Below, in pieces: positions 14,810 through 35,368 of a stretch of DNA of 64,000 nucleotides. This DNA comes from Shinella sp. PSBB067. GTDB taxonomy: Bacteria; Pseudomonadota; Alphaproteobacteria; Rhizobiales; Rhizobiaceae. Each line of letters opens with the position of its first letter. Position 1 is the first letter of the stretch. Location: assembly GCF_016839145.1 (NCBI RefSeq), contig NZ_CP069302.1, positions 1 to 64,000 on the forward strand, written 5' to 3'. The notes under the pieces were generated by a model. The model saw only the letters and a program-made list of their open reading frames with translations. It made no database searches and had not been told where the DNA came from. Both the position numbers and the translations under genes were made by a program.

Positions 14810-15063
14810 AGGCGGCAAGGATGAGAAGCCGGTTGAAAAATCCGTTAGACATTTAACGGCTGCATGAAGTTTGCACGCTGAGGATGCGGTTCCAGCGGAT
14901 TGTGTCTCACTTCGGGATGGATCGCCGCCCTGCATGACGGGACGTGAAACCAACGGCAGCAGGAGGGACGCGGGCGGGATTTAAGCAAAGATTCACGGCG
15001 CTGTGCTTTGGTCGTTTCCTGATGGACCCGTGCTGCGTGCGGGCGGCCTTCAAAGGACGCGAA
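14810..15063. promoter_or_regulatory. Divergent promoter region before the Wzy-like gene
   Basis: Contains the inverted repeat CCGTTA-N6-TAACGG at 14842-14859, a candidate operator. The core CGTTAGAC recurs in the leader region of the GT4 operon near 24458. Nothing else recognisable. Confidence 0.35.
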
Positions 15064-16491
15064 ATGGACTTCATACCCGTCATTCTGTTCTGGGTACTGC
15101 TGCTCGTCGGAATGGCAAGCCGGGGGCCGTTCATCTTCTATCTGCTGTTCGGCTCGATGTCCTTTGGCTCCTTCGCGGTCATCCCGCCGGAGATCACGCA
15201 GGGCCTGAGCTTCACCCCTCCCCCGATCGTCGCCCTCGCCATCGTCTTCATCTATGCCGGTGGGGCGAACGGCCTGTCGCGGATGCTGGACATCGCTCTG
15301 AGGCCGTCCCAGTGCCTGCTGCTGTTCCTGTTCTGGCTCGTCGCCGTCTGGGTCACGCTGTTCATGCCGCGGATCTTCGCGGGCCATGTGACGATCATCC
15401 CGATGCGGCTGGAGGAATGGACCAGCGGCATTCCGCTCTATCCCACGCAGCAGAACATCTCGCAGCTCATGTACCTGACGATCTCGATCGTGACGGTGCT
15501 CGCCTGTGCGCTGGCCTTCCGTTCGGCGCCTGCGCGCCAGCACCTCCTCTCCGCCCTGTGCGTCGGCGGGTGCCTCGTCGTGCTGACGGGCATTGTCGAC
15601 CTGGCGGGCCTCGGCCCCTATCTCGACATGTTCCGCACCGCCCAATATTCCTATCTGACGGATGTCGACATTGCCGACGTCAAGCGCGTCGTGGGCCTGA
15701 TGCCGGAAGCCTCGACCTACGGGTCGCTGGCGGTGTCGTTCCTCTCGGCGATCTATTTCTTCCGCCGTGCGATCGCCGCGCCCTGGCTGCGGCTCTACGG
15801 CGCGCCCTTCCTCATCGTGCTGCTGACGTTCTTCTCGCTGCTTTCGACCTCGTCCGCGGCCTATGCGGGCATCGCCGTCTTCGGCTGCGTGGCCGCTGCC
15901 GAATGGTTCTGGCGCCTTTTGACGGCGGGCAAGGGAAGCGTGGCGCGGGAGGGGCTGGTGGTGGAGTTCTGGGCAGTCCTTCTGGGCTTCGGCGCCGTCT
16001 ATCTGCTGGCGCTCGTCTATCCCAAGGCCTTCGATCCGTTCCTGAAGCTGATCGACACGATCATCTTCCAGAAGACCGCCTCGGACTCCTACGAGGAGCG
16101 CAGCATGTGGACGGCGGTTTCCCTGCAGGCGCTGTGGGATACCTGGGGGCTCGGCGTCGGCATGGGTGCGACCCGCGCCTCGAACGGGATCGTCGCCGTG
16201 TTCAGCAACAGCGGCGTCGTCGGCGGGCTGCTCTATTACGGCTTCATGCTCCAGACCTTCCTGCGCCGCGCGCGGCCGGGCGATGCGACCGGTGCGGCCA
16301 TCCTCAACGCCGTGCGCTTCTACATGCCGCCCGTGCTCATCATGGCGACGCTGGTCGGCACGTCAGCCGATTTCGGCATCATGAACGCCTGCATCTATGC
16401 CCTCGCGGCGGCGACCGCTTGGCCGGTTCCCGCGCGGGCCCTGCCCGCCCATTCCCTGTCCTTCGCCTATCCGGAAAGGCCTCGCCCATGA
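15064..16491 (+). CDS. Wzy-like EPS/O-antigen polymerase family membrane protein
   Basis: A 475-residue integral membrane protein with about ten to twelve hydrophobic segments, starting MDFIPVILFWVLLLVGMASR. The large loop and following residues (GLMPEASTYGSLAVSF; SYEERSMWTAVSLQALWDT; LGVGMGATRASNGIVA) match the Wzy/ExoQ-like ligase-polymerase pattern. It would join repeat units in the periplasm. AAGGACG lies before the ATG; an upstream in-frame extension to 14944 was not used because it is not hydrophobic. The last four bases overlap the flippase gene (ATGA). Low primary conservation makes the polymerase call an inference from topology and context. Confidence 0.75.
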   Translation: MDFIPVILFWVLLLVGMASRGPFIFYLLFGSMSFGSFAVIPPEITQGLSFTPPPIVALAIVFIYAGGANGLSRMLDIALRPSQCLLLFLFWLVAVWVTLFMPRIFAGHVTIIPMRLEEWTSGIPLYPTQQNISQLMYLTISIVTVLACALAFRSAPARQHLLSALCVGGCLVVLTGIVDLAGLGPYLDMFRTAQYSYLTDVDIADVKRVVGLMPEASTYGSLAVSFLSAIYFFRRAIAAPWLRLYGAPFLIVLLTFFSLLSTSSAAYAGIAVFGCVAAAEWFWRLLTAGKGSVAREGLVVEFWAVLLGFGAVYLLALVYPKAFDPFLKLIDTIIFQKTASDSYEERSMWTAVSLQALWDTWGLGVGMGATRASNGIVAVFSNSGVVGGLLYYGFMLQTFLRRARPGDATGAAILNAVRFYMPPVLIMATLVGTSADFGIMNACIYALAAATAWPVPARALPAHSLSFAYPERPRP

Positions 16492-17963
16492 CTGCCGCCG
16501 ATGGCGCTTCCCTCTCCGCGCGGACGATCCGGGCCGGAATCTGGACCGTCGGAGCGCGGCTGTCCTCCCGCCTGATCGATTTCGCGGTCCTGCTCGTCCT
16601 CGCCCGCCTGCTGGGGCCGGCCGACTTCGGCCTGGTGGCGACGGCGATGACCGTCATCTACATCGTCGAAGCCATCCTGGAACTGCCGCTGACATTCGTC
16701 CTCGTCCGCCTGCCGCAGGTGACGGACCGCATGTATGACACGGCCTTCACGCTGGGCCTGATCCGCGGCCTTCTCGTCGCCGGCCTGATGGCCGCGCTGT
16801 CGTGGCCGCTCGCCTCCCTTTACGGCGACCCGCGCCTGATGCCGCTCATCTGCACCCTGGCGCTCGCGCCCGCGGCCCGCGGCCTGATCAGCCCTCGCAT
16901 GGTGATCTTCGAGAAGGCGCTGGATTTCCGCCGCAAGGGCGCGCTCGAACTTCTCGGCAAGGCCGCCGCGGGCGCCATCGCCATTTTCATCGCCGTGAGC
17001 ACGGGAAATTATTGGGCCGTGGCGGCCGGCACGATCTCCGCGCCGGTCGTGATGATGATCGTCTCCTACGTGATGGCGCCCATGCGCCCGCGCCTCTCGC
17101 TGGCCGATTGGCCGATCTTCTCCAACATGACGGGCTGGAACTTCCTGTCGCAGATCGTCTCGGCGCTCAACTGGCAGGTCGACCGCCTCATCCTGCCCAT
17201 CTATATCGACGTCACCTCCTTCGGGCGCTTCACGACGGCCAACGACATCGCGGGGCTGCCCTTCCAGGCGATCGTCCAGCCGACGGCGGTCCCGCTGTTT
17301 TCGGCGCTGGTCAATGCGCGCGAGAAGGGCAGCCTGGTCGGCGCCTATCTCAAGGCCTGCTCCGGCATCGTCATGCTGATGGCGCCGGTGATGTGCTTCA
17401 TCGCGCTGATGGCCGGCCCGGTGATCCATATCCTGCTCGGGCCTGCCTGGGCGAGTGGCGCCCCCATCCTCGCGGGTGTCGCCCTGACGAGCCTCTTCGT
17501 CCTGCCGACCGTTCCCATGTCCGCGCTGGTGCTGGTGCTGGACCGGCCCCGCCTCGTGGCTTTCCGCTCGCTGGTCGAACTGGCGGCGCGCGTGCCGCTC
17601 ACCGTGGTCGGCATCATCTTCTACGGGATTTCCGGCGCCATCGCCGCGAAGGCGGGCGCGGGCGTGGCGCTGCTGCTGATGACGCTCTACTCGGTGCGAT
17701 CCGTCGCCGGCATCCCGATCCGCGACCAGCTCCGCAGCAGCCTTTATCCCATGGTCGCGCTCGTTCCCGCCGTCGCGTTCCTTTATGGCGTGCCCGATCT
17801 CACGCAGTCCGGCCCCTACCTCTACCCGGCCATCGCGGTCGTCGGCCTCGTCTACGGCATGCTCTATGTCGCGGGATTGTACGGGCTTTGGTGGGTGACG
17901 GGGCGGCCCGACGGGCTCGAATCCTATCTCGCCGGCAAGGCAACGGCCTATTTCCGGCGGTAA
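16488..17963 (+). CDS. Wzx-like lipopolysaccharide/EPS repeat-unit flippase
   Basis: A 491-residue polysaccharide transporter of the MOP superfamily. It starts with an amphipathic segment and WTVGARLSSRLIDFAVLLVLAR, followed by LLGPADFGLVATA, the typical flippase opening. About twelve to fourteen membrane segments follow, including SNMTGWNFLSQIVSALNWQVDR and the conserved GRFTTANDIAGLPFQAIVQP. It moves lipid-linked repeat units across the inner membrane for the polymerase encoded just upstream. Translation is coupled through the ATGA overlap. Confidence 0.92.
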   Translation: MTAADGASLSARTIRAGIWTVGARLSSRLIDFAVLLVLARLLGPADFGLVATAMTVIYIVEAILELPLTFVLVRLPQVTDRMYDTAFTLGLIRGLLVAGLMAALSWPLASLYGDPRLMPLICTLALAPAARGLISPRMVIFEKALDFRRKGALELLGKAAAGAIAIFIAVSTGNYWAVAAGTISAPVVMMIVSYVMAPMRPRLSLADWPIFSNMTGWNFLSQIVSALNWQVDRLILPIYIDVTSFGRFTTANDIAGLPFQAIVQPTAVPLFSALVNAREKGSLVGAYLKACSGIVMLMAPVMCFIALMAGPVIHILLGPAWASGAPILAGVALTSLFVLPTVPMSALVLVLDRPRLVAFRSLVELAARVPLTVVGIIFYGISGAIAAKAGAGVALLLMTLYSVRSVAGIPIRDQLRSSLYPMVALVPAVAFLYGVPDLTQSGPYLYPAIAVVGLVYGMLYVAGLYGLWWVTGRPDGLESYLAGKATAYFRR

Positions 17964-19997: not shown

Positions 19998-20282
19998 CGA
20001 GATTGCCTCCTGAGACAGAACGGGCGCGGGAAATTCAAGGCGCACGACGATTTTAATAGGTGCAACTTCTGCATAATTGCTTAAACAGCCGGCTGAAGGG
20101 CCGCCCGGAGCCGGTCTTGGTGAGCAGAGCGTAAATGGCTTGCCGTGCTTCGGAGTTCGAATGGCGAAGATTTGTGCGATGTGCAACGCGAAGTCGCGAT
20201 CCGGTCCCGGTTTCTTAATGAAATTCCGCTTTGCTATGGCCGATTGAAATTCCGGCAGATCGGTGTATCGGGAAAATTGGCA
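19998..20282. promoter_or_regulatory. Divergent intergenic region
   Basis: Lies between the epimerase gene (minus) and the tandem hydrolase gene (plus), so it should hold promoters for both. It is less GC-rich than its neighbours at both ends; no boxes could be assigned with confidence. Confidence 0.3.
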
Positions 20283-22085
20283 ATGCACGGCACGTCCGCT
20301 CGAAATATCCCTCCCCTGCCCGCGGCGCCTGCTGCGGAAAAGGCCGGGGAAAGGCCCGCAGAGGCCGGCCGTCCCGTCACGTTCGCCGGAACCGTCGGCC
20401 TCTATATGCCTGCCGATGCGCGCGTACAGGCGAGCGATACGGCCGTGCTGTTCGTCGGTTCCTGGGGGTTCGAGGAATTGTGCGCCCGCAAGTTCTGGCG
20501 GCTGCTGGCCGAGGACCTGGGACGCCAGGGTATCGCCAGCCTGCGCTTCGACTTTCCGGGGACGGGCGACGCACTCGACCCGGAGGACTGCTCCGCCGGT
20601 CTCGACATCTGGCTGCAAAGCATCGCCTCTGCGGCGGCGGCGCTTCGCGATCTTTCGGGAGGCAGGCGCCTGCTGCTCATGGGGCACGGCATCGGGGCTG
20701 CGCTGGCATGGCGCGCGGCCGAGATGATCGATGACGTCGCGGGCATCGCCATGGCCGCGCCGGCGACCTCCGGCCGCCGCTGGGTGCGCGAATTCATGGC
20801 CCTCAGCCGCATTGCCGATCACGGCGCGATCAAGCATGCGACGCCGCCCGGCGGGCCAGCCATGGGCGAGCAGACCATTCCGGACGCCATTCTCGCCGGT
20901 ATCCGCGCCCTCGACATTTCCCGGAGGGAGAAGGCGGCGGCCCCCGAGGTCCTCGTCCTGTCCCCGGAAGGGCGCGCCGATGCCGCCTTCCTCGACCACT
21001 TGGGTTCGCTCGGAGTGCAGGTGCGGACCGCGCCGTTCGAGGGCTACGACCTCTTCGTCCGCGACGTGCTGCTGTCCATTCCGCCGCGCGCGGCGATCGG
21101 CCGCCTGGTGGACTGGGCATGCGGCCTGAAGGGGACGCAGACGCCCGCCGCGCCGGCGTTGCCGGAAAGCCGGCCGCTTGCCGGCGACGGCTTCACGGAG
21201 ACGCCCGTCCGCTTCGGCGAGGGCGAGCGCCTCTATGGCGTGCTGTGCGAGCCGCAAGGCCCGCGCCGGGGCGCGACGGTGATGATGCTGTCGACCGGTT
21301 ACGACCGCATGTCGGGATGGGGCCGGATCACCACCCGCATCTGCCGGGACCTCGCGCGCGCGGGCATTCCGGCCTTCCGTTTCGACTTCGCCAATGTCGC
21401 GGACAGCCCGCCCTGCCCGCAGGCGCCCGCGCAGGTCATGTACAGCGAAAGCCTCGTCAGCGATGTCGGCGAGGCGCTGGCCTTCCTGGAGGCGCGCGGG
21501 CTCTCGCCGGTCGTCCTGACCGGCCGCTGCAGCGGCGGCTACACCGCCTTCAGAAGCGCGATCCGCTACGGGGCGGTCAAGGCCGTCGTTCCCGTCAACC
21601 CGTTCGACTTCGCCTTGGCACCGGATAAGGACGTCGATGCCCTCATCAACGCGTCGCTCCAGCCGCTCGCCAGCTATGGCGAGAAAATGCGCAGCGGCGG
21701 ATTCTGGAAACGGGTCCTGCGAGGGGAAGTCGATGTGGTGCGGGGCGTGCGCAACCTGTCGCGGATGATCCTTGCCAAAGGCACCGCGACCGCATTGCCG
21801 CTTCTTGTGCGCTTCCCGTTCCTGTCACGCAACGTGACCGCGGCGGCACGCGATTTCAAGGCCGTCGCCGCGAACGGGACGCGGGTATCGCTGATCTATA
21901 GCGAGGGCGACATCGGCGTGCCCAATCTCGAGGCGCGCTTTGGCAAGCGGGGATATCTGCTCGCACGCTACGACAATACGAGCCTTGCCTTCCTCGCCGA
22001 CGCCGACCACAACCTGACGACCGCGCCGGCCCGGCAATATTGGCAGGCCGAGCTCGAGAAGACCGCGCGGCAGTTTCATCCCTGA
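20283..22085 (+). CDS. Tandem alpha/beta-hydrolase protein with altered nucleophile sites
   Basis: A 600-residue protein containing two alpha/beta-hydrolase-like halves (about residues 40-265 and 300-590). In the first, the nucleophile elbow reads LMGHGIGAA, with glycine where serine is expected, so it is probably inactive. In the second it reads LTGRCSGGY, placing cysteine at the nucleophile position; a later ADADHNLTT supplies a plausible histidine. Each half starts like serine aminopeptidase-type hydrolases. Context resembles the exosortase-associated hydrolases of other EPS loci (inference). The ATG at 20283 is chosen as the start of the conserved part; its ribosome-binding site is weak. 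Confidence 0.8.
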   Translation: MHGTSARNIPPLPAAPAAEKAGERPAEAGRPVTFAGTVGLYMPADARVQASDTAVLFVGSWGFEELCARKFWRLLAEDLGRQGIASLRFDFPGTGDALDPEDCSAGLDIWLQSIASAAAALRDLSGGRRLLLMGHGIGAALAWRAAEMIDDVAGIAMAAPATSGRRWVREFMALSRIADHGAIKHATPPGGPAMGEQTIPDAILAGIRALDISRREKAAAPEVLVLSPEGRADAAFLDHLGSLGVQVRTAPFEGYDLFVRDVLLSIPPRAAIGRLVDWACGLKGTQTPAAPALPESRPLAGDGFTETPVRFGEGERLYGVLCEPQGPRRGATVMMLSTGYDRMSGWGRITTRICRDLARAGIPAFRFDFANVADSPPCPQAPAQVMYSESLVSDVGEALAFLEARGLSPVVLTGRCSGGYTAFRSAIRYGAVKAVVPVNPFDFALAPDKDVDALINASLQPLASYGEKMRSGGFWKRVLRGEVDVVRGVRNLSRMILAKGTATALPLLVRFPFLSRNVTAAARDFKAVAANGTRVSLIYSEGDIGVPNLEARFGKRGYLLARYDNTSLAFLADADHNLTTAPARQYWQAELEKTARQFHP

Positions 22086-24382: not shown

Positions 24383-24708
24383 CGCGAACTCCCTCGGGCT
24401 GGTTGTGTATTCCAGCGAGGGTTACGCCAACAATATCGAGAAACCGTGAAAAGGATCGTTAGACTTCGAGTAAAAGCCTATCCGGAAGGTGTTTCCTGAT
24501 CGAATCCGGGAAAAACCGGGGGTGGAAACGCAAACAGGATTAACGATTCACTAAAAATCGACCGGGGTTTACCCGATGGCAGACCTGATTTGAAGCAAGA
24601 ATGCGTCATGCCGGCCGGATCGGGATCTCATGACTGCCGCGCGCCACTTTCTTAATGTTTTCGTGGCTTCCTTCTCAAGAAAAATTGCTGGTAGAGATCT
24701 GTTCGACA
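24383..24708. promoter_or_regulatory. Divergent intergenic region, 326 bases
   Basis: Separates the GT4 operon (minus) from the deacetylase gene (plus). It contains the bulged hairpin at 24391-24421, an occurrence of CGTTAGAC near 24458 that also appears in the operator-like repeat at 14842, and AT-rich DNA near 24540-24560 suited to promoters. No gene is evident. Confidence 0.4.
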
Positions 24709-25491
24709 ATGAATTTCGATGATTTCAAGGATTGTATCGTCGTCGTGGCGCATCCCGACGACGAGATATTGTGGGCGAGCTCCCTGCTTGCTTGCGCGAA
24801 GAAGATCATCATGTGCTACGGCGACAGTCCGGAAAGCGCGCAGGTCAGCGCAGGCCGGCGTGCCCTTCTTCGCCAGTTCCCGCTGAAATCGGTGGTCAGC
24901 CTCGATATAACCGAAGCCCGCGTCTACAAGATGGCGGACTGGCGCCGGCCCGTGGAAACCGCCCACGGCATCCGCTGCGGCCGCGACGGCGCCTATGCGC
25001 GGAATTTCCGGCTGGTGACGGACGCACTGCGCGAGCATCTCGACGACGGCGATCTGGTCGTCACCCACAATCCCTGGGGCGAGTACGGCCACGAGGAACA
25101 TGTTCAGGTCTACCGGGCCGTTTCCGCCTTGCGGCAGCAGAAGGATTTCCGCCTGTTCGTGACGGGCTATGTCAGCGACAGGGTGCTTCACTTCATGGAG
25201 AGGAACATCCCGCGCCTCGGTCCCGCATCCGCCATGCTGCCGACCGACAAGGCGCTTTGCAGCCAGTTGAAGCAGCTATACGAGGCCCATGATGCCTGGA
25301 CCTGGGATGCCGGCTATGAATGGCCCGACCGGGAATGCTTCTACGAGGTCACCAAGCCGGACGCACCGCTTCGCGCCGGCGAAGGGACCATGGCGTCCCT
25401 GCCCGTCAACGTTCTCTGGCTCGATGGACAATTGCCGCTCTGGCGCCGCGTCTACCGCGGGGTGAAACGACGCCTGCGCTCACTTTCCTAG
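24709..25491 (+). CDS. PIG-L/LmbE family deacetylase
   Basis: A 260-residue zinc-dependent N-deacetylase. The metal and catalytic motif VVVAHPDDEILWA lies at about residues 10-22, and the second metal motif NPWGEYGHEEHVQVY at about 125. Family members remove acetyl groups from N-acetyl sugars or similar amides. In this EPS locus it may de-acetylate an amino sugar, leaving a free amine for modification, for example by the acyl or amide genes downstream (inference). The ATG at 24709 gives the usual family length; an in-frame ATG at 24655 is possible. It converges with and overlaps the next gene by four bases. Confidence 0.88.
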   Translation: MNFDDFKDCIVVVAHPDDEILWASSLLACAKKIIMCYGDSPESAQVSAGRRALLRQFPLKSVVSLDITEARVYKMADWRRPVETAHGIRCGRDGAYARNFRLVTDALREHLDDGDLVVTHNPWGEYGHEEHVQVYRAVSALRQQKDFRLFVTGYVSDRVLHFMERNIPRLGPASAMLPTDKALCSQLKQLYEAHDAWTWDAGYEWPDRECFYEVTKPDAPLRAGEGTMASLPVNVLWLDGQLPLWRRVYRGVKRRLRSLS

Positions 25492-27122: not shown

Positions 27123-29279
27123 TCAGCCGGCGCGCGGAACGCTGCGCTGCTCTTCCTGAACGATCATCGGGCCGACCGGCGTCAGGCCGCGCTGCCTGAG
27201 GAGCGAAACCGCGCTTTCAACGCTTTTCCGGCTGTACCGGCTTCCCAGGACGGCGAAGCGGTCCGCTGCGATTTCCACGGCGGCAATGGGCTTTTGCTGA
27301 TCGAAACGCCCGGCATGGACGATGACGAGATCGAAGCGGCACCCGCTCGCCTCCAGCCAGTCCACCAGGGCGCCCGTTTCGGTGCCTCGCCGTGTCGAGA
27401 CACGGGGCGACCTGCGCCCCGCCGGCATCAGCCAGAAGCCTCCCGTGTCGGAGAGAGTGACGAAATCCCCCTCTATTCTCTGGAGGGAGACGGAATCGAG
27501 CAGGCCGGGAAGCCCCACGGCCGATGCCTGCCGCGTCAAGGCGGCTTCGGCGTCCGCATCGACGAGGAGAACCGAGCTGCCGGAACGGGCGGCCGTGCGC
27601 GCCAGTTGGAAGACGGTGCGGGCGGCATTGCCCTGCACCTGCGTGGAGTAGAGGACGACCGAGTAGTTCGACCGGCCCTCGGCTTCCGCGACGAGCCGCT
27701 GCGCGATGTCGAAATGGCTGCCCTCCACGGCGTCTCCGGATGGCGCCTGCCGCGCATCGCGCGGCAGCGGAAAGGCCAGGGTGTGCTGCCGGTCGGCGTC
27801 GTCGTGCGCCGGAGGCGCCCGTTCCCGTTTCCTGCGGCGGCGCAGCCATCCAAGCAGCCGCGACGGCAGGCGTTCCCCGGCCGGGCGCCTTGCCGCGTCG
27901 GCTGCCTCTTCCGGCCGGTCGTCCTCAAGCGGCTTGCGGTCACGGGCGAGCGCGATGCCGCAGCCGAGCAACAGGCCGAGCACCGTCGCGCCGGCGATGA
28001 TGAGGGAGCGCTTGGGGCCCGCCTTGGTCAGCGGCACCTGCGCGACCGAGATGATTTGCGGATTCTCGCTGACCGTGCGCTCCTGGCCGGAGAGCTGGCG
28101 GGTGCGCAGCAGGAAGGATTCGTAGACCGCGCGGTCGCTGGCGAGCTTGCGCTCCAGCTCGCGCAGGCGAACCATCGACTGGTCCGACTCGTTCAGGCTC
28201 CCCTTCAGCGCGGCAAGGTTCTTGCGGAGCAGCTCGCGCTGGTTCTTCAACTTCTCGCCGTTGCTGGCGAGCGCCGTCGTGAAGTCCTTCAACTGCCCTT
28301 CGAGAAGCGCGGAAACCGCGCGCGTCCTTGCCTTGGCGCTCATGAGGGACGGATGGCGCTCGCCGAAGGAGGACTGGAGCACCGACTGCTGCTCGAGCGC
28401 GGTATGGTAGCGCGTGCGCAGTTCGATGATCGCCGGCGTCAGGGAGGAATCCGGCGTCGACCGAAGGTATTCCGGGTTGGAGCGCGCGCGGGCGAGCTCG
28501 GCGATCTGGGCCTCGTTCTCCGCGATGCTCGCGGAAATGCGCGTGATCTCGGTATTGGTCTCGGTGATCTGCTGCTCGGCGGTCGGCCGGCCCGCGACAT
28601 CCACGAGGTTGTGTTCCGCCTTGTAGGCCTGGATCGCGCGGTCACCTTCCTCGACGGCCTTTTCCAGGCTCGCCAGTTGGGCCGAAAGGTCCGTCGTCGC
28701 CTGGCGCACCAGCCCGTTGTTCATTTCGAGGCGGGTCTGGATATAGGTGTCGGCGATCGCATTGGCGATCCGCGCGACCTTTTCCGGATCATAGGACGTC
28801 ACGGAGAGGTCGATGACGAAGCTCGCCTTGTTGAGCGTGGCGGCGATCGCGCCCTGGAGCGTGGCGAGCGCGCGCTGGGCGCGCTTCTCCCGGTCGGGCT
28901 CATAGGGTTGCGCCGCGCCGAAATCCGGGTCGTCGGCAAGGCCCTGCGATTCCACCACCGCGGAAAGGACCTTCACGGAGGTCAGGATGTATTGCTGGTT
29001 GAGGGTGCGCGCCTCCGTGGCGCGGCTCTCGCCGTTGATCTCGCCGTCCACGATCCGCGAGCCTTCCGGGTCGACCAGGATGCTGACGGTGGAGACGTAA
29101 TAGTTCTTCATGAGCTGCGAAAGGAAGACGGACGCCACGCAGAAAAGGGCCGTGAGGGCGACGATCATCAGGAAGCGGTTGCGCAGGACGGAAAACACAT
29201 GCGCGAAATCGATCTGCGGAATGGCGCCCGGGCTCTGCCCGTCCTCTCTTTCGGCGTGTGAAATGTTGCTGTCGACCAT
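27123..29279 (-). CDS. Polysaccharide co-polymerase of the Wzc/GumC type with degenerate BY-kinase domain
   Basis: A 718-residue inner-membrane chain-length regulator. TM1 (about residues 36-56) follows IDFAHVFSVLRNRF; the Wzz domain and long coiled coils (about 190-410) lie in the periplasm; the proline-rich exit motif SVAQVPLTKAGPKRSLIIA leads into TM2 (about 445-465). The cytoplasmic part (about 540-715) aligns with tyrosine kinases: VLLVDADAEAALT is the Walker A' motif. The Walker A position reads YSTQVQGNAARTVF, without the GK[ST] lysine, and there is no C-terminal tyrosine cluster. It probably assembles EPS without autophosphorylation. Start set at the ATG 29279; a GTG at 29327 is possible. 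Confidence 0.88.
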   Translation of the reverse strand: MVDSNISHAEREDGQSPGAIPQIDFAHVFSVLRNRFLMIVALTALFCVASVFLSQLMKNYYVSTVSILVDPEGSRIVDGEINGESRATEARTLNQQYILTSVKVLSAVVESQGLADDPDFGAAQPYEPDREKRAQRALATLQGAIAATLNKASFVIDLSVTSYDPEKVARIANAIADTYIQTRLEMNNGLVRQATTDLSAQLASLEKAVEEGDRAIQAYKAEHNLVDVAGRPTAEQQITETNTEITRISASIAENEAQIAELARARSNPEYLRSTPDSSLTPAIIELRTRYHTALEQQSVLQSSFGERHPSLMSAKARTRAVSALLEGQLKDFTTALASNGEKLKNQRELLRKNLAALKGSLNESDQSMVRLRELERKLASDRAVYESFLLRTRQLSGQERTVSENPQIISVAQVPLTKAGPKRSLIIAGATVLGLLLGCGIALARDRKPLEDDRPEEAADAARRPAGERLPSRLLGWLRRRRKRERAPPAHDDADRQHTLAFPLPRDARQAPSGDAVEGSHFDIAQRLVAEAEGRSNYSVVLYSTQVQGNAARTVFQLARTAARSGSSVLLVDADAEAALTRQASAVGLPGLLDSVSLQRIEGDFVTLSDTGGFWLMPAGRRSPRVSTRRGTETGALVDWLEASGCRFDLVIVHAGRFDQQKPIAAVEIAADRFAVLGSRYSRKSVESAVSLLRQRGLTPVGPMIVQEEQRSVPRAG

Positions 29280-29541
29280 GCTTCGGCACCGTTGGGTGGT
29301 CTTGCGGACCGTGACGACGGGAATCACGGCTGCTCGGCGCGATGGTATTTTCGATGAGTTAACATATCATTTACCGTAATTTACGCTCACCTGCCCCGGC
29401 TACCGAGCTTTAGGCCGGCCACGCGAAGGCGCGGCAAGGCAAGTCGGGCATTTTGACCTTTTCTTCATGCTCCTCGCGTAAGGAGAGGTCGCGGTGGCCG
29501 CACGCCGGGAACCGGAACGGGCAGGTTCTAAGTGGATTTCA

Positions 29542-30651
29542 ATGTCGAACGTACGTTCATTCGAGGCCGGTGACGTTGACGCTGTCGCGGATATTTTCCA
29601 GCGGCTGCTGCGCAAGGACCGCGCCCCGGCAAGCGCCGATCTCAAGGACTATCTCGGCGCGCTCTATCTCGGCGCCGAAAGCCGGGACGCCCGCCTCGGC
29701 TCGCGCGTCCATGTCCGCGCCGACGGCACGGTATCCGGCTTCATCGGCGTTCTTCCCGTGGAAATGGAATTCGAGGGGCGCCGTGTTCTGGCGGCCAATT
29801 GCGGCTCCTTTGTCAGCGACGACCGCGACTGCGATCCGTTCGCCGGCGCGCGCCTGCTGCGTGACGTCCTGTCGGGGCCGCAGGACCTTTCCTTCAGCGA
29901 AACGTCGAACGACGTCTCCACCGATATGTGGCGGAGCATGCGGGCGCGCGTTCTCGGCCCCTATAGCCTCGAATGGCTGCGCGTCCTGCGGCCGGCCGCC
30001 TTCGCCGTCGAGGCGGCTGCGCGGCGCGTTTCGGCGGCAAGGCTGGCAGGGCCCCTTGCCAAGGCGGCCGATGCCGTGCTGTGCAGGCGCGGCAGGCGGC
30101 GGGCATGGACCTATTACGCGCCGCTCGCGGGCAAGGCGGACGCGTTCCTCGACGAGCCGGCCTCCGACGGCGAATTCATCGATGCCCTGCCGCTTTTCGT
30201 GCAGGGATTTTCCCTGCGCCCGCGCTGGGAGCGGTCGGTACTGGAGACCATGCTCCGGCACGCCGCGCGCAAGGCGCTGCATGGCGAGCGGGTGCAGCAT
30301 CTCGTCAAGACCCGCTCCGGCAAGGCGATCGGCGCGTATCTCTATTATGGCGATGCCGGCGGCATAGGCCGGACGGTGCAGGTCCTGTCGGCGCCGGGCC
30401 AGGAATCGATCGTCGTCGAGTGCCTTCTTCGCAATGCGCACGAGCGCGGTCTCGCCGCGATCCGCGGCCAGACCCAGCCGACGCTTCTGGAGGCGATGAT
30501 CGGCAAGAAATGCGCCTTCCTCCAGGCCTCTTCCACTGTGGTGCACTCCCGCGACCCCGCCCTTCTCGAGGCGATGACGTCGGGCAGGGCCTTTCTCAAC
30601 GGCCTCGTCGGGGAAGGCTGGACGCGCCTCATCGGCGATCGGTTCGGGTAG
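29542..30651 (+). CDS. GNAT-fold acyltransferase-like protein, first gene of the modification operon
   Basis: A 369-residue protein. The N-terminus (MSNVRSFEAGDVDAVADIF) and the segment VHVRADGTVSGFIGVLPVEM look like the N-terminal half of GNAT acetyltransferases. Positions about 280-340 (GIGRTVQVLSAPGQESIVVE; GLAAIRGQTQPTLLEA) could form a second GNAT-like half, as in FemAB-type tandem folds. No catalytic residue is certain. It starts a co-directional run in which the asnB-like gene begins only five bases after its stop, so it is probably part of the same pathway, perhaps an acyl transfer to the polysaccharide (inference). Confidence 0.7.
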   Translation: MSNVRSFEAGDVDAVADIFQRLLRKDRAPASADLKDYLGALYLGAESRDARLGSRVHVRADGTVSGFIGVLPVEMEFEGRRVLAANCGSFVSDDRDCDPFAGARLLRDVLSGPQDLSFSETSNDVSTDMWRSMRARVLGPYSLEWLRVLRPAAFAVEAAARRVSAARLAGPLAKAADAVLCRRGRRRAWTYYAPLAGKADAFLDEPASDGEFIDALPLFVQGFSLRPRWERSVLETMLRHAARKALHGERVQHLVKTRSGKAIGAYLYYGDAGGIGRTVQVLSAPGQESIVVECLLRNAHERGLAAIRGQTQPTLLEAMIGKKCAFLQASSTVVHSRDPALLEAMTSGRAFLNGLVGEGWTRLIGDRFG

Positions 30652-30656
30652 CTGCA

Positions 30657-32606
30657 ATGTGCGGGATAGCAGGATATAACGGAAATACCATCGCACCCGG
30701 CGAGGCTGTGGATCGCCTTGGCCGCATGGTCGGGGCGCTGCGCCACCGCGGGCCTGACGGTGACGGCATCCTCGTTCGTGGTGAAACGGGCCTTGCCCAT
30801 ACGCGTCTTTCCATCGTCGGCCTTGCCGACGGGGCGCAGCCGATGACCAGCGCGGACGGCGGGCTTGCCGTCTCCTTCAACGGCGAGATCTTCAATTACG
30901 TGGAGCTTCGCGAGGACCTGAAGGCGCGCGGCCACCGCTTCCGCACGACCTGCGACACGGAGGTGCTGCTCGCCTCCTATGCGCAGAAGGGCCTCGACTG
31001 CCTTGCGGATTTCAACGGCGACTTCGCCTTCGCCCTGCACGATGCCCGCAGCCGCACGCTGGTGCTCGCCCGTGACCGCATGGGCGTGCGTCCCCTCTTC
31101 TATACAGAGCAGGGCGGCATGCTCTTCTTCGCCTCCGAGATCGGTGCGCTGCTCGCCCTGCCGGGCGTGACGGCGGAGATCGATCCGCTGGCACTCGACC
31201 AGATCTTCACGCTCTGGTGCCCCATTCCGCCGCGCACTGCCTATCGCGGCATCCACGAGCTTCCCCCCGGTCACGTCATGATCGCGCAGGACGGCCGGCG
31301 CACGGTGCGGCCGTGGTGGCAACTCTCCTATCCCGACCGCGCCGATGCGCCCCCCGCCGGCCGGGTGGAGACGCAGGCCGAAGAACTGCGCGCGCTGCTG
31401 GACGATGCCACGCGCATTCGCCTGCGGGCCGACGTGCCGGTCGGCGCCTACCTTTCCGGCGGCCTCGATTCGTCCTTCATCGCGGCGCTGGCGGCGCGAA
31501 GGGTGACGCATGGTCTCAGGACATTCTCCCTGACCTTCCGCAGCGCCGAGCACGACGAAAGCGCCTGGCAGCGGCAGGTTGCCGCGACGCTCGACGCCGA
31601 GGCCGACAGCGTCGAATGCACCGGCGGAGAGATCGTCGCGCGCATGCCGGATGTCATGCGGCATGTCGCCTGCCCGATCCTGCGCACGGCGCCCGTTCCG
31701 CTTCACCTGCTGTCGGCGCGGGTGCGCGCGCGGGGCATGAAGGTGGTGCTGACCGGCGAGGGCGCGGACGAGGTCTTCGCGGGCTACGACATCTTCCGCG
31801 AAGCGCGGGTGCGGCGTTTCTGCGGGCGCCAGCCGGGATCGGCGCGGCGCACGCAGCTCTTCCAGCGGCTCTATCCCTATCTGCCGGGCCTCAGGCAGCA
31901 GACGCCGGAATATCTCGCGCGCTTCTTTTCCTTCGGGTCCGAAGCGCTCGACGACCCGCTCTATTCCCATCGGCAGCGCTTCCGGTCCACCGCCGCGGCG
32001 AAACTGTTCTTCTCCGCCGGTCTCAAGGAGGCCATCGGCGACTACGATGCCGCCGCCGACCTTGCCGGGCGCCTGCCGGCCGATTTCGCTCGCTGGCATC
32101 CGCTGCATCAGGCGCAATATATCGAGACGGCCTTCCTTCTGCCGGGCTATATCCTGTCCAGCCAGGGCGACCGCGTGATGATGGCGAATGCGGTCGAAGG
32201 CCGCTTCCCCTTCCTCGATCACCGGGTCGTTTCCTTCGCCGCAGGCCTTTCGCCCGATGCCAAGCTGCTCGGGCTGCGCGAGAAGCACGTCCTCAAGGAA
32301 GCCGCGCGCGGCATCGTGCCGACCGCGATCATCGACCGCCCCAAGCAGCCCTACCGCGCGCCGGACGCCGAGGCCTTTTCCGGCGCCGCGGCATTCCTCG
32401 ACACCGTCCTTGCGCCGGAGCGGCTGGCGGAAAGCGGGCTTTTCAATGTGCAGGCCGTGGGCAAGCTGAAGGAAAAGGTCCTCAGGAAACAGGTCGCCGG
32501 CTTCCGCGACAACGCGGCCTTCATCGGCATCCTTTCGACCGAATTGCTGCGCGGAACCGACACCGCGCAATCGTCACAAACCTTATCGAACATCGGGGCA
32601 AGCTGA
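30657..32606 (+). CDS. Asparagine synthase-like glutamine amidotransferase
   Basis: A 649-residue AsnB-type enzyme. The class II glutaminase domain starts with the catalytic Cys2 in MCGIAGYNG and contains LRHRGPDGDG, VSFNGEIFNYVELRE and CDTEVLLASYAQ. The synthetase domain (about 240-600) has the ATP-pyrophosphatase loop YLSGGLDSSFIAAL and LTGEGADEVFAGY, and VEGRFPFLDHRVV. It releases ammonia from glutamine and uses it on an adenylated carboxylate. In EPS loci such paralogues are thought to amidate a sugar acid rather than make asparagine. Position two bases before an ACP gene supports a dedicated substrate. Annotated asnB-like; a gene symbol is withheld because it may not make asparagine. Confidence 0.93.
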   Translation: MCGIAGYNGNTIAPGEAVDRLGRMVGALRHRGPDGDGILVRGETGLAHTRLSIVGLADGAQPMTSADGGLAVSFNGEIFNYVELREDLKARGHRFRTTCDTEVLLASYAQKGLDCLADFNGDFAFALHDARSRTLVLARDRMGVRPLFYTEQGGMLFFASEIGALLALPGVTAEIDPLALDQIFTLWCPIPPRTAYRGIHELPPGHVMIAQDGRRTVRPWWQLSYPDRADAPPAGRVETQAEELRALLDDATRIRLRADVPVGAYLSGGLDSSFIAALAARRVTHGLRTFSLTFRSAEHDESAWQRQVAATLDAEADSVECTGGEIVARMPDVMRHVACPILRTAPVPLHLLSARVRARGMKVVLTGEGADEVFAGYDIFREARVRRFCGRQPGSARRTQLFQRLYPYLPGLRQQTPEYLARFFSFGSEALDDPLYSHRQRFRSTAAAKLFFSAGLKEAIGDYDAAADLAGRLPADFARWHPLHQAQYIETAFLLPGYILSSQGDRVMMANAVEGRFPFLDHRVVSFAAGLSPDAKLLGLREKHVLKEAARGIVPTAIIDRPKQPYRAPDAEAFSGAAAFLDTVLAPERLAESGLFNVQAVGKLKEKVLRKQVAGFRDNAAFIGILSTELLRGTDTAQSSQTLSNIGAS

Positions 32607-32608
32607 GC

Positions 32609-32863
32609 ATGACCGCAGAGACCCAGGCCGCAATCCGCGCCTTCATCGTGGAGAATTTCCTGTTCGGCGACGAGAGCCATCCGCTGCCGGCGGATCTGTC
32701 GCTGATCGACAACGACCTCATCGATTCCACCGGCATCCTCGAGCTCGTGGGCTTCCTGGAAGAGCGGTTCGCCATCAAGGTCGCCGATGCCGACATCGTG
32801 CCCGCCAATCTCGACACGATCGAACGGATCTCCGGCTTCATCGCCCGCAAGCAGGCGGCCTGA
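32609..32863 (+). CDS. Acyl carrier protein
   Basis: An 84-residue carrier with the phosphopantetheine attachment serine in DLIDSTGILELVGFLEE (Ser at about residue 39; the usual DSL reads DST here). Helix II and III sequences fit the ACP fold (ERFAIKVADADIVPANLDTIERI). It begins two bases after the amidotransferase stop and precedes the AMP ligase, so it very probably carries an acyl or amino-acyl group activated by that ligase. It is distinct from fatty-acid ACP, which has the conserved GADSLD. Confidence 0.92.
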   Translation: MTAETQAAIRAFIVENFLFGDESHPLPADLSLIDNDLIDSTGILELVGFLEERFAIKVADADIVPANLDTIERISGFIARKQAA

Positions 32864-32877
32864 CGGCGGAAGCGGCC

Positions 32878-34374
32878 ATGCGGATCGAGCACTATCTTCG
32901 CAACAGCGTTGCGCGCGGCGGCACCAGGACGGCAATCGTCGCGGGCGACGTGCGGCTGAGCTACGACCGCTTTCTCGACCTTGCCGCCCGCATGGCGACG
33001 ACGCTTCGCAGCCGCGGCGTCGGCCGGGGCGACAGCGTCCTCATCCTGCTCGACAACGGCTGGCAGGCTGCGGTGACGGTTCTCGCCACCTGGCTGGCGG
33101 GGGCGGTCATCTGCCCTGTCAATCCGGCGTCCAAGGCGCCCCGCCTCCAGCACATCGCGCAGGACTGCACGCCTGCGATGGTGGTGGCGGAGGGGCGGCT
33201 CGAAAGGCTCGTCGCGGATGTCGACGCGCTTTCCGCCGTGCCGCGGCTGGTGACGGGCGCGGCGGGCAGCTTCGAAGCGGGACTGGAGGCCGCGCCGTTT
33301 GCCGGCGAAGCTTTTCCGGACACCGATCTTGCGGCCCTGATCTATACCTCCGGTTCGACCGGCGTGCCGAAGGGCGTGATGCTGGCTCATGAGAACATGG
33401 ATGCGGCCGCACGCTCGATCTCGGCCTATCTCGGCAACACCGCGGCCGACACGATCCTCGTCGTGCTGCCGATGTCCTTCGGCTACGGGCTCAACCAGCT
33501 CGTGACGGCCATGCTTTGCGGCGCGACGCTCGTCATCGAAAAATCCTTCGCCTTTCCGCAGGCGGTCTTCGAGAGGATTCGCGACGAGCGCGTCACCGGC
33601 TTTGCGCTGGTGCCGGCCATGGCCGCCATGATGATGCAGGCGCGCGAACTCGATCCGTCGCTCTTTGCAAGCCTGCGCTATGTCACGAGCGCGGCCGCGC
33701 CCCTGCCGCCCGCCCATCTCGACTGGCTGCGCGCCTTCCTGCCGCATGCCCGCCTTTTCTGCATGTACGGCCAGACCGAATGCACCCGCGCGACCTATCT
33801 CCCGCCGGAGGAGATCGACGCCCGGCGCGGCTCGGTCGGCATCGCCATTCCCGGTCTGCAGGCCGAGGTGGTGGACGAGGCCGGACTGGCCGTGCCGCCG
33901 GGCGCGGTCGGCGAACTGGTGGTCAGCGGCCCGAACGTGATGCGGGGCTACTGGAAAAACGAGGCGGAAACCCGCAAGGCACTTCGGCCCGATCCGAATA
34001 CCGGCACGATCCGCCTTCATACCGGCGACCTCTTCACGGCGGACGCCGACGGCTATCTCACCTTCGTCGCCCGCACCGACGACATCATCAAGTCGCGCGG
34101 CGAGAAGGTCGCGCCGAAGGCGGTGGAGGACGTGCTGCACCGGATGCCGGGGGTCGCGGAGGCGCTCGTCGTCGGCGTGCCGCACGAGGTTCTCGGCGAG
34201 GCCGTGAAGGCGCTCGTCGTCGCCACCGACCCGGCGCTGACGGAGCGGGACGTCATGCGCTTCTGCGCGCAGAACCTGGAGGACCACATGGTCCCGAAGA
34301 TCGTCGAATTCCGGCAGTTCCTGCCGAAAACCGAATCCGGCAAGGCCAGCCGCAGGCTGGCCGCCGCCCTCTGA
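32878..34374 (+). CDS. Class I AMP-forming acyl-CoA/acyl-ACP ligase
   Basis: A 498-residue member of the ANL superfamily. The P-loop is ALIYTSGSTGVPKGVMLAH (about residue 155). Other core motifs are MYGQTECTRATYLPPEE (A5, about 297), the aspartate in LHTGDLFTADADGYL (A7, about 380) and the C-terminal PKTESGKASRRLAAAL carrying the A10 lysine. It adenylates a carboxylic acid and transfers it to a thiol; with an ACP gene fourteen bases upstream the acceptor is probably that ACP. Similar AMP ligases belong to exosortase-associated EPS loci. Confidence 0.93.
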   Translation: MRIEHYLRNSVARGGTRTAIVAGDVRLSYDRFLDLAARMATTLRSRGVGRGDSVLILLDNGWQAAVTVLATWLAGAVICPVNPASKAPRLQHIAQDCTPAMVVAEGRLERLVADVDALSAVPRLVTGAAGSFEAGLEAAPFAGEAFPDTDLAALIYTSGSTGVPKGVMLAHENMDAAARSISAYLGNTAADTILVVLPMSFGYGLNQLVTAMLCGATLVIEKSFAFPQAVFERIRDERVTGFALVPAMAAMMMQARELDPSLFASLRYVTSAAAPLPPAHLDWLRAFLPHARLFCMYGQTECTRATYLPPEEIDARRGSVGIAIPGLQAEVVDEAGLAVPPGAVGELVVSGPNVMRGYWKNEAETRKALRPDPNTGTIRLHTGDLFTADADGYLTFVARTDDIIKSRGEKVAPKAVEDVLHRMPGVAEALVVGVPHEVLGEAVKALVVATDPALTERDVMRFCAQNLEDHMVPKIVEFRQFLPKTESGKASRRLAAAL

Positions 34375-34387
34375 CAGGATCGAACCC

Positions 34388-35368
34388 ATGACAGCACCGA
34401 TGTCCCGCACGCCCTCCTTCGCACCGCTGGTGCTCGATCCGGAAGCGGAGGTCGAGCGCATCGCCGCCTGGATGCGGGCGCGGCTGCGTCTCGATCTGCG
34501 CAAGCGCGGCCTCGTGCTCGGCCTTTCCGGCGGCATCGATTCCAGCCTCTCGGCCGCGCTTGCCGCGCGCGCCCTCGGGGCGAAGAACGTCTTCGCCCTC
34601 TTCATGCCGGAGAACGATTCCGACCCGGAGAGCCTGCGGCTCGGGCGCAGCGTCGCGCAGACCTTCGGCATCGAAAGCGTGGTGGAAGACATCGGGCCGA
34701 CGCTTGCCGCCATGGGCTGCTACGAGCGCCGCGACGCCTTCATCCGTGAGGCGGTGCCGGAATATGGCGCCGGCTGGGCCTCCAAGATCGTCTTCGACAA
34801 TCCGATGACGTCGGGCGGCTACAACATCTCCTCCCTCGTCGTGCGGTCCCCTGACGGCGAGACGCGCAAGGTGCGCCTCGGCGCGGGCGCCTATCTCGGC
34901 ATCGTCGCGGCGACGAACATGAAGCAGCGTACCCGCAAGCAGCTCGAATACTATCACGCCGACCGGCTGAACTTCGCCGTGCTCGGCACGCCGAACCGGC
35001 TCGAATACGACCAGGGCTTCTTCGTCAAGAACGGCGACGGCGCGGCCGACATCAAGCCGATCGCCCATCTCTACAAGTCCCAGGTCTACCAGCTTGCCGC
35101 CTATCTCGGCGTGCCCGCCGAGATCCTCTCCCGCCCGCCGACGACGGATACCTATTCGCTGCCGCAGACCCAGGAGGAATTCTACTTCGCCCTGCCCTAC
35201 GACAAGATGGACATCTGCCTCTACGGCCTGGAGAACGCCGTGCCGGCCGCAACCATCGCGGAGGCGACGGGGCTGAAGGCGGGCGAGGTCGAGCTGGTCT
35301 GGGCCGACATCGCGGCCAAGCGCAAGGTTGCGCGCTACCTGCACAGCCAGCCGCTCGTCATGGGCTGA
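34388..35368 (+). CDS. NAD(+) synthase-like N-type ATP pyrophosphatase
   Basis: A 326-residue NadE-family protein. It has the pyrophosphatase loop LGLSGGIDSSLSAALA (about residue 44) and the family signature GTPNRLEYDQGFFVKNGD followed by AADIKPIAHLYKSQVYQLA (about 200-235). An extra segment (about 135-180, with YNISSLVVRSPDGETRKV) is longer than in short ammonia-dependent NadE. There is no N-terminal glutaminase domain, so it would need free ammonia. Its place thirteen bases after the AMP ligase in an EPS operon suggests a pathway role rather than housekeeping NAD synthesis; that is inference. Confidence 0.88.
   Translation: MTAPMSRTPSFAPLVLDPEAEVERIAAWMRARLRLDLRKRGLVLGLSGGIDSSLSAALAARALGAKNVFALFMPENDSDPESLRLGRSVAQTFGIESVVEDIGPTLAAMGCYERRDAFIREAVPEYGAGWASKIVFDNPMTSGGYNISSLVVRSPDGETRKVRLGAGAYLGIVAATNMKQRTRKQLEYYHADRLNFAVLGTPNRLEYDQGFFVKNGDGAADIKPIAHLYKSQVYQLAAYLGVPAEILSRPPTTDTYSLPQTQEEFYFALPYDKMDICLYGLENAVPAATIAEATGLKAGEVELVWADIAAKRKVARYLHSQPLVMG

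Follow-up and report, generated by a model that had tools for sequence, protein, structure and literature searches.

A conserved, exosortase-independent carrier-protein cassette in Shinella sp. PSBB067 and the acyl-amide chemistry it may perform

Introduction

What pathway is served by a short row of genes for a GNAT-like protein, an AsnB-type glutamine amidotransferase, a carrier protein, an AMP-forming ligase and a NadE-like protein? The question arises from a stretch of 64,000 nucleotides of Shinella sp. PSBB067 (contig NZ_CP069302.1, positions 1 to 64,000; hereafter the window), whose source genome amounts to 5.77 Mb across four contigs. An original prediction, made from the sequence alone, had described the row as an exopolysaccharide (EPS)-linked cassette akin to the companions of exosortase A (XrtA/PEP-CTERM) loci, lacking an exosortase and working together with a nearby PIG-L deacetylase. 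In the excerpts of the literature that we found, no tested chemistry is assigned to the ligases and carriers that accompany exosortase loci. Here we report that the row is a real, conserved and exosortase-independent carrier-protein cassette, of a kind already glimpsed in Sinorhizobium meliloti and in XrtA loci, and we weigh what it may make. A literature search of limited depth found no paper on the five-gene set.

Results

The five genes span positions 29542-35368 of the plus strand and are separated, from the GNAT-like to the NadE-like gene, by 5, 2, 14 and 13 bases, so that the predicted co-directional arrangement with gaps of 2-14 bases is borne out (Table 1). Their conservation was followed in two samples, whose loci carry L-numbers. 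The first holds the best 80 of at least 582 relatives by likeness to the window NadE-like protein and is biased to close kin; the second holds 22 genomes chosen by the NadE-like gene alone from evenly drawn genomes, with the source genome excluded, and shares three genomes with the first (L125, L126, L127). Among evenly drawn genomes the NadE-like family was detected in 2 of the 142 from the class (E<=1e-30) and, at E<=1e-60, in 12 of the 299 from the phylum and 16 of the 249 from the order, each count including the source genome. By tblastn, the first-sample loci hold AsnB (70/80), the carrier (79/80), the ligase (79/80) and the GNAT family (71/80). In the second sample, carrier and ligase stand beside the NadE-like gene in 22/22 and AsnB in 21/22, in the orders AsnB-acyl carrier protein (ACP)-ligase (LIG)-NadE (13 genomes), NadE-AsnB-LIG-ACP (6) and AsnB-LIG-ACP-NadE (1), with AsnB split off in one of the remaining layouts and missing from the other. 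None of 20 control stretches, at hand-picked positions in 18 of the second-sample genomes, contains any cassette gene. Since the set is kept together through rearrangement, these neighbourhoods are strong evidence that AsnB, carrier, ligase and NadE-like protein form a coherent unit serving one pathway, and the quartet proposed earlier is a genuine one.

Departures from the full set are of several kinds. Nine first-sample loci on long-enough contigs lack AsnB, and all nine genomes hold an AsnB elsewhere with 59-64% identity, which in one genome falls in two frames. The contigs of L053 and L006 are short. At L062, in Devosia crocina, GNAT, AsnB, carrier and NadE are retained, and no ligase was seen there. 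Azospirillum thermophilum has the order ACP-LIG-AsnB-NadE followed by an annotated GNAT, within an EPS locus with a polysaccharide deacetylase; this GNAT gave no tblastn match to the window GNAT-like protein.

Profile searches place the individual proteins. AsnB matches PF00733 and PF13537 and exceeds the TIGR01536 cut-off (476.8 against 267.1 bits). No Pfam family matches the carrier protein at E<=0.001; its NCBIfam matches, all below cut-off, are to carrier families, the best being the ornithine-lipid carrier family (53.5 against 130 bits); its best matches in a PDB search are peptidyl carrier proteins. A phosphopantetheine-type serine is present in 53/53 aligned carrier rows. The window carrier keeps this serine, and its phosphopantetheinylation and ligase-dependent acylation are predicted by analogy with S. 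meliloti, for which they are reported (PMC7232532). The NadE-like protein scores 500 bits against NF002048 (the PRK00876 NadE-like subfamily), over the curated cut-off of 313, and its closest relatives, among the matches listed, are mostly named Shinella. Because a stronger NAD synthetase match (PF02540, 247.8 bits), of which it is a paralogue, lies elsewhere in the source genome, it is unlikely to be the main NAD(+) synthetase.

The exosortase profiles TIGR02602 and PF09721 gave no match in the source genome at E<=0.001, in line with the lack of an exosortase noted in the window; the PEP-CTERM profile PF07589 found nothing there, but found nothing in control genomes either. Only one (L018) of 49 cassette genomes searched, drawn from the first sample, carries an exosortase. 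Among the 299 genomes drawn from the phylum, 17 hold a ligase over the TIGR03098 cut-off, 12 the NadE-like gene and none both. The window ligase reaches 399.3 bits against TIGR03098 (cut-off 592.35) and AsnB 404.1 bits against TIGR03108 (cut-off 816.9). Upstream in the window, a double hydrolase resembles exosortase-A-associated hydrolase 2 in its N-terminal domain (hydr2_PEP, 52.4 bits) and hydrolase 1 in its C-terminal domain (hydr1_PEP, 69.2 bits), both under cut-off, and is kept in Shinella zoogloeoides (81%).

The ligases were placed in a midpoint-rooted tree of 85 rows, which included 31 of 88 cassette-cluster rows, the window and, of 43 TIGR03098 matches, the 30 that came with loci. A group of 54 rows holds the NadE-cassette ligases (support 100/97), and an adjoining group of 27 rows holds all 17 XrtA-type ligases (support 100/99); neither group takes in the divergent cassette ligases L120 and L121 or two of the second ligases. 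The originally proposed kinship with the XrtA companions is thus upheld by the sub-cut-off TIGR03098 and TIGR03108 matches and by the neighbouring ligase groups. Membership in that set was rejected, given the absence of an exosortase match, the missed cut-offs and the single exosortase genome among the 49. By these sequence comparisons the cassette is kin to the XrtA companion set, not a member: both pair an AsnB and an AMP ligase with hydrolases in the vicinity of EPS genes, whereas the window cassette comes without an exosortase match, with an added NadE-like gene, and with a ligase and an AsnB under the curated cut-offs.

The ligase also offers a clue to its substrate. In the PDB, it and the carrier match stand-alone adenylation enzymes and their peptidyl carrier proteins (6o6e prolyl-carrier ligase, PigG; 3wvn). 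The A4 Asp of nonribosomal peptide synthetase (NRPS) adenylation domains holds the substrate amine. At the aligned position, the 89 first-sample ligase rows have Asp in 49, Gly in 18 (window included), Thr in 8 and Asn in 4; nine Ile rows are second ligases and one Ala row (L043_03) is an unrelated minus-strand ligase, all ten of which stay in the total. The Asp is present in 17/17 XrtA-type ligases and absent from the window ligase (Gly 202). In the tree, a supported group (96/93) of sixteen Gly/Thr rows surrounds the window, set among Asp rows; Gly or Ser also occurs outside this group (L090, L119, L133). Loss of the amine-holding Asp in the window lineage means that its ligase probably activates an acid without an alpha-amine, unlike the Asp-type majority; most of the family is predicted to activate an amino acid.

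A further partner goes with the Asp type. A PrmC/HemK-type methyltransferase was found by tblastn in 28/80 first-sample and 7/22 second-sample loci, with the NPPY motif in 26/26 rows inspected. Three of these cassette proteins, at 175-184 bits, fall short of the PrmC cut-off (199.1) but pass that of the wider HemK family. Each of 11 genomes searched, the source genome included, has a PrmC over the cut-off (covering profile positions 1-252 in ten and 20-252 in one), and nine have a second PrmC-like copy at the cassette that starts only at profile position 32-53. The source genome and G373 have no cassette copy; the second PrmC-profile match of the source genome is of a different kind (3-223) and lies far from the cassette. 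In the first sample, the methyltransferase accompanies 28/49 Asp-type ligase rows against 0/30 Gly/Thr/Asn rows, and all 7 second-sample methyltransferase loci are Asp-type. PrmC methylates a glutamine side-chain amide, and a PrmC-like partner therefore suggests, by analogy, N-methylation of the amide made by AsnB or the NadE-like enzyme. New here are a PrmC-like paralogue seen only with Asp-type ligases and the loss of this Asp in the window lineage.

The GNAT-like window protein has no Pfam or NCBIfam match. Its AlphaFold2 model (predicted local distance difference test score, pLDDT, 92.3) has a tandem double-GNAT fold, with N-myristoyltransferases among the closest folds. A VIA-align structure comparison of this model contained no Fem protein in the 50 rows listed, which excludes nothing. 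At E<=1, PF13527 matches 18 of 35 GNAT-family members, with 6.1e-7 as the best value; the window protein is not one of these 18.

The GNAT family was found in 11/22 second-sample genomes; two others, L121 (recognised by Pfam) and L119 (31% identity to the L121 GNAT), have a divergent GNAT. A thioesterase-domain protein stands beside the cassette in 7/22, found by Pfam in L117, L123, L129 and L130 and by 58-63% identity to these in L124, L128 and L137; the seven are the same loci as those with the methyltransferase. No genome of the 22 showed GNAT and thioesterase together, and Pfam and identity searches detected neither in L120 and L133. This pattern suggests a carrier-bound group off-loaded either to an amine, by the double-GNAT protein, or by a thioesterase; this pair of alternative off-loading enzymes is likewise new here.

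In L123, a single protein directly upstream of NadE has adenylation and thioesterase domains (L123:6781-9516, plus strand; the genome belongs to the window's family), and L124 and L128 have the same by full-length likeness. Between the two domains of the L123 protein a carrier-type GGDS stretch can be seen by eye, where Pfam gave no carrier domain. L137 has a 743-amino-acid frame with both adenylation-type and thioesterase-type matches.

How firmly is the cassette tied to surface polysaccharide? The EPS queries were a handful of single sequences, which may miss distant EPS genes. At least one EPS query gene lies near 33 of the 75 first-sample loci of at least 15 kb, against 1/20 controls (Fisher p 0.001), but near 5/22 second-sample loci against the same 1/20 (Fisher p 0.19, not significant); both Fisher values ignore the relatedness of rows. 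No EPS query matched near three other Shinella cassettes (L001-L003, from Shinella lacus, Shinella daejeonensis and Shinella curvata) or near that of an Agrobacterium (L005). The ten neighbours scanned with Pfam at these four loci include no EPS gene; they encode two carbohydrate kinases, two FAD oxidases, an AMP-binding protein, three solute-binding proteins, a MauE/glutaredoxin protein and an aconitase. In S. meliloti and Sinorhizobium medicae, GumC-type and other polysaccharide genes lie about 13 kb or more behind NadE, past min genes. Pfam scans of 20 chosen second-sample neighbours found an O-antigen ligase in L119 and L117 and a glycosyltransferase in L120. A polysaccharide deacetylase stands immediately behind NadE in L131 (L131:8278-9336, minus strand, PF01522) and L074 (L074:11035-12090), the two being 78% alike. 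An HfsH-like deacetylase is present in 24/80 first-sample loci, and the source genome has one short sub-threshold HfsH match.

EPS linkage is thus frequent without being a fixed property of the cassette, and the predicted link is only partly supported, with EPS genes enriched near the first-sample loci but not significantly so in the second sample.

The locus of Shinella zoogloeoides is colinear with the window for mannose-1-phosphate guanylyltransferase, cupin, membrane protein, flippase, GT2, epimerase, double hydrolase, two glycosyltransferases (GTs) and cassette, but PIG-L, one GT and GumC are missing from it at the corresponding position. PIG-L was found near the cassette in 0/80 first-sample and 0/22 second-sample loci, and the proposal that it belongs to the pathway was not borne out. 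PIG-L and GumC were accordingly rejected as parts of the unit. The prediction had also placed the cassette after a Wzc/GumC-type gene; that gene is real, with Wzz and GNVR domains, but it lies on the opposite strand, so the cassette is divergent from it.

Table 1. Cassette genes and selected neighbours in the window
Feature	Coordinates	Strand	Remarks
GNAT-like, double-GNAT acyl/aminoacyl transferase-like	29542-30651	+	369 aa; fold from model
AsnB-type glutamine amidotransferase	30657-32606	+	649 aa; Asn_synthase + GATase; MCG start, SGGLDSS loop retained
Acyl/peptidyl carrier protein	32609-32863	+	84 aa; serine in DST stretch
AMP-forming ligase / stand-alone adenylation enzyme	32878-34374	+	498 aa; AMP-binding; Gly 202 at NRPS A4 Asp position
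NadE-like amide synthetase (predicted)	34388-35368	+	326 aa; NAD_synthase domain
Wzz/GNVR (GumC-type) polysaccharide co-polymerase	27123-29327	-	Pfam Wzz + GNVR domains
PIG-L family deacetylase	24655-25491	+	Pfam match
Two alpha/beta hydrolase domains, one chain	20145-22085 (later start near 20283 possible)	+	hydr2_PEP/hydr1_PEP matches
Wzx-type flippase (Polysacc_synt_3)	16488-17963	+	Pfam
Membrane protein, guessed polysaccharide polymerase/ligase	14944-16491	+	no Pfam match; 88% in Shinella zoogloeoides

The start of the GNAT-like gene was taken as the ATG at 29542, with a GTG at 29494 as the alternative. A Shine-Dalgarno-like stretch, AAGGAGAGG (window 29480-29496), precedes this GTG, which is in frame with the gene. 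A promoter scan gave no promoter-like site, a terminator scan gave 7 terminator-like sites against 4.0 expected, and a hairpin 3' of the NadE-like gene is no better than in shuffled sequences.

Discussion

The genes, the predicted fold, the conserved motifs and the co-conservation are what we observe. They lead us to a tentative preference, a little short of even, for a carrier-protein assembly line that builds an amide-bearing acyl group and passes it by the double-GNAT protein to an amine. We infer the chemical steps, their order and the acceptor as follows. The ligase would adenylate a small carboxylic acid and load it onto the carrier protein. AsnB, fed by glutamine, and the NadE-like enzyme would turn carboxylates into amides, either on this acid or on an acceptor, for instance a uronic acid. 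The double-GNAT protein would then take the acyl group off the carrier and form an amide with an amine, most plausibly on a surface polysaccharide precursor whose amino sugar is deacetylated or free. In the window enzyme the loaded acid is predicted to lack the alpha-amine expected for most of the family.

Excerpts of two published accounts offer precedents for a chemistry of deacetylase, GNAT and amidotransferase (PMC7468200, PMC5362036). The Wbp/Vim linking-sugar pathway of Porphyromonas gingivalis combines a deacetylase, the GNAT-type VimA and the AsnB-type WbpS, and the window likewise has a GNAT fold and an AsnB. VimA is proposed to move an amino acid onto a sugar amine, and WbpS makes a uronamide (excerpts of PMC7468200); AsnB is cited elsewhere too as a uronamide maker (excerpt of PMC3684757). 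The pathway differs from the window in that its description, in the available part of PMC7468200, names no carrier protein, ligase or NadE-like enzyme, and in that the PIG-L deacetylase neighbour of the window is not conserved. The holdfast pair HfsH/HfsK, a deacetylase with a tandem-GNAT protein, is thought to modify a surface polysaccharide, and FemX is given as the closest solved structure to HfsK (excerpts of PMC5362036). Stand-alone adenylation enzymes with peptidyl carrier proteins (6o6e, PigG; 3wvn) resemble the window through the ligase and carrier PDB matches, although in the window this pair stands with AsnB, a NadE-like protein and a GNAT.

The core quartet itself is not a first sighting, as the S. 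meliloti carrier-ligase pair is already published. On pSymB, S. meliloti has AsnB, carrier, ligase and NadE-like genes in the order of the window and on one strand. Ramos-Vega in 2009 is said to have described the operon as asnB-SMb20651-SMb20650-nadE1, and the chains on SMb20651 are reportedly C12 and C18. We take SMb20650 and SMb20651 to be the orthologues of the cassette ligase and carrier, the match of these tags to genes being presumptive. SMb20650 and the carrier gene SMb20651 share a transcript (excerpts of PMC7232532), and SMb20650 is down-regulated under predation (excerpt of PMC10315480). Sinorhizobium departs from the window in having no GNAT gene at the head of the operon, a GNAT-family member of S. 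medicae lying about 10 kb behind NadE, and in its ligases (L014, L015), which are Asp-type where that of the window is Gly-type.

Several observations weigh against a glycan-modifying assembly line. The EPS enrichment of the second sample is not significant, and queries and neighbour scans turned up no EPS gene at L001-L003, the other cassettes from Shinella. The seven second-sample cassettes with a thioesterase-domain protein, in which no GNAT was found, fit a released small molecule better. Co-expression of SMb20650 in E. coli yielded acylated SMb20651, so that the loaded acid may be a fatty acid (excerpts of PMC7232532). Finally, deletion of hfsK in Hirschia was without effect on the holdfast (excerpt of PMC8449245).

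The main rival, which we consider rather unlikely although better placed than the others, is that the cassette makes a diffusible small molecule, such as a short amide-bearing NRPS-like product, its closeness to EPS genes being incidental or regulatory; the thioesterase would release the acyl group in some genomes and the GNAT pass it to a soluble amine in others. The whole adenylation-thioesterase proteins of L123, L124 and L128, the PrmC-like methyltransferase at all seven thioesterase loci, and the kinases, oxidases and solute-binding proteins around L001, L002, L003 and L005 speak for this. Against it, genes for GumC, a flippase, a polymerase or an HfsH-like deacetylase accompany the GNAT-bearing loci in Bosea, Sinorhizobium, Rhodopseudomonas and others. 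For the GNAT form of the cassette, a glycan amine remains the most likely acceptor.

We hold a lipid or aminolipid pathway to be distinctly improbable. Here the ligase would load fatty acids onto the carrier and the N-myristoyltransferase-like GNAT would move the chain to an amine, in line with the acylated SMb20651, the closest folds of the GNAT-like protein and the sub-threshold ornithine-lipid match of the carrier. However, SMb20650 could not substitute for FadD, whether in S. meliloti or in E. coli (excerpts of PMC7232532), an Asp at the amine-binding position of 49 of the 89 ligase rows would be unexpected for a fatty-acid enzyme, and the likeness to N-myristoyltransferases is one of fold only. 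Ordinary asparagine and NAD metabolism genes, as the AsnB and NadE-like scores over the TIGR01536 and NF002048 cut-offs might suggest, are very improbably together by chance, given a better NAD synthetase match elsewhere and a set that survives rearrangement. An XrtA-type protein-anchoring or EPS module served by a distant exosortase, to which the TIGR03098, TIGR03108 and hydr1/hydr2 matches would point, is barely credible with no exosortase match in the source genome, one in 49 cassette genomes, and no NadE-like gene in the 17 genomes whose ligase passes the TIGR03098 cut-off.

The assembly-line reading can be extended to the whole family, in a form that we regard as unlikely to hold in every part. 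The cassette would be an exosortase-free sister of the XrtA module that grafts an amidated aminoacyl group onto glycan amines through the double-GNAT protein; the Asp-type lineage would also N-methylate the amide by the PrmC-like enzyme, the lineage containing Shinella would have switched to a non-amino acid, and in the thioesterase cousins a group of this type would be released as a metabolite. If true, an exosortase-free related module with two off-loading enzymes would mean that the acyl-amide chemistry is separable from protein sorting. Ligase, carrier, AsnB, NadE-like protein and GNAT are a small set that could be rebuilt in vitro, and the change from Asp to Gly/Thr predicts substrate choice directly.

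The cassette of L061, a locus titled Bacillus subtilis SK6B4, is laid out as in Pseudochrobactrum (L079), and a Shinella-like NadE (92.6%) lies on a plasmid titled Roseateles (NZ_CP084753.1); both look like mislabelled alphaproteobacterial DNA. On the Nitratireductor rhodophyticola plasmid of L093, where the first cassette gene is taken as GNAT by place and size only, the cassette stands directly behind annotated Mu transposase C-terminal, TniB and TniQ genes, a hint that it may be able to move.

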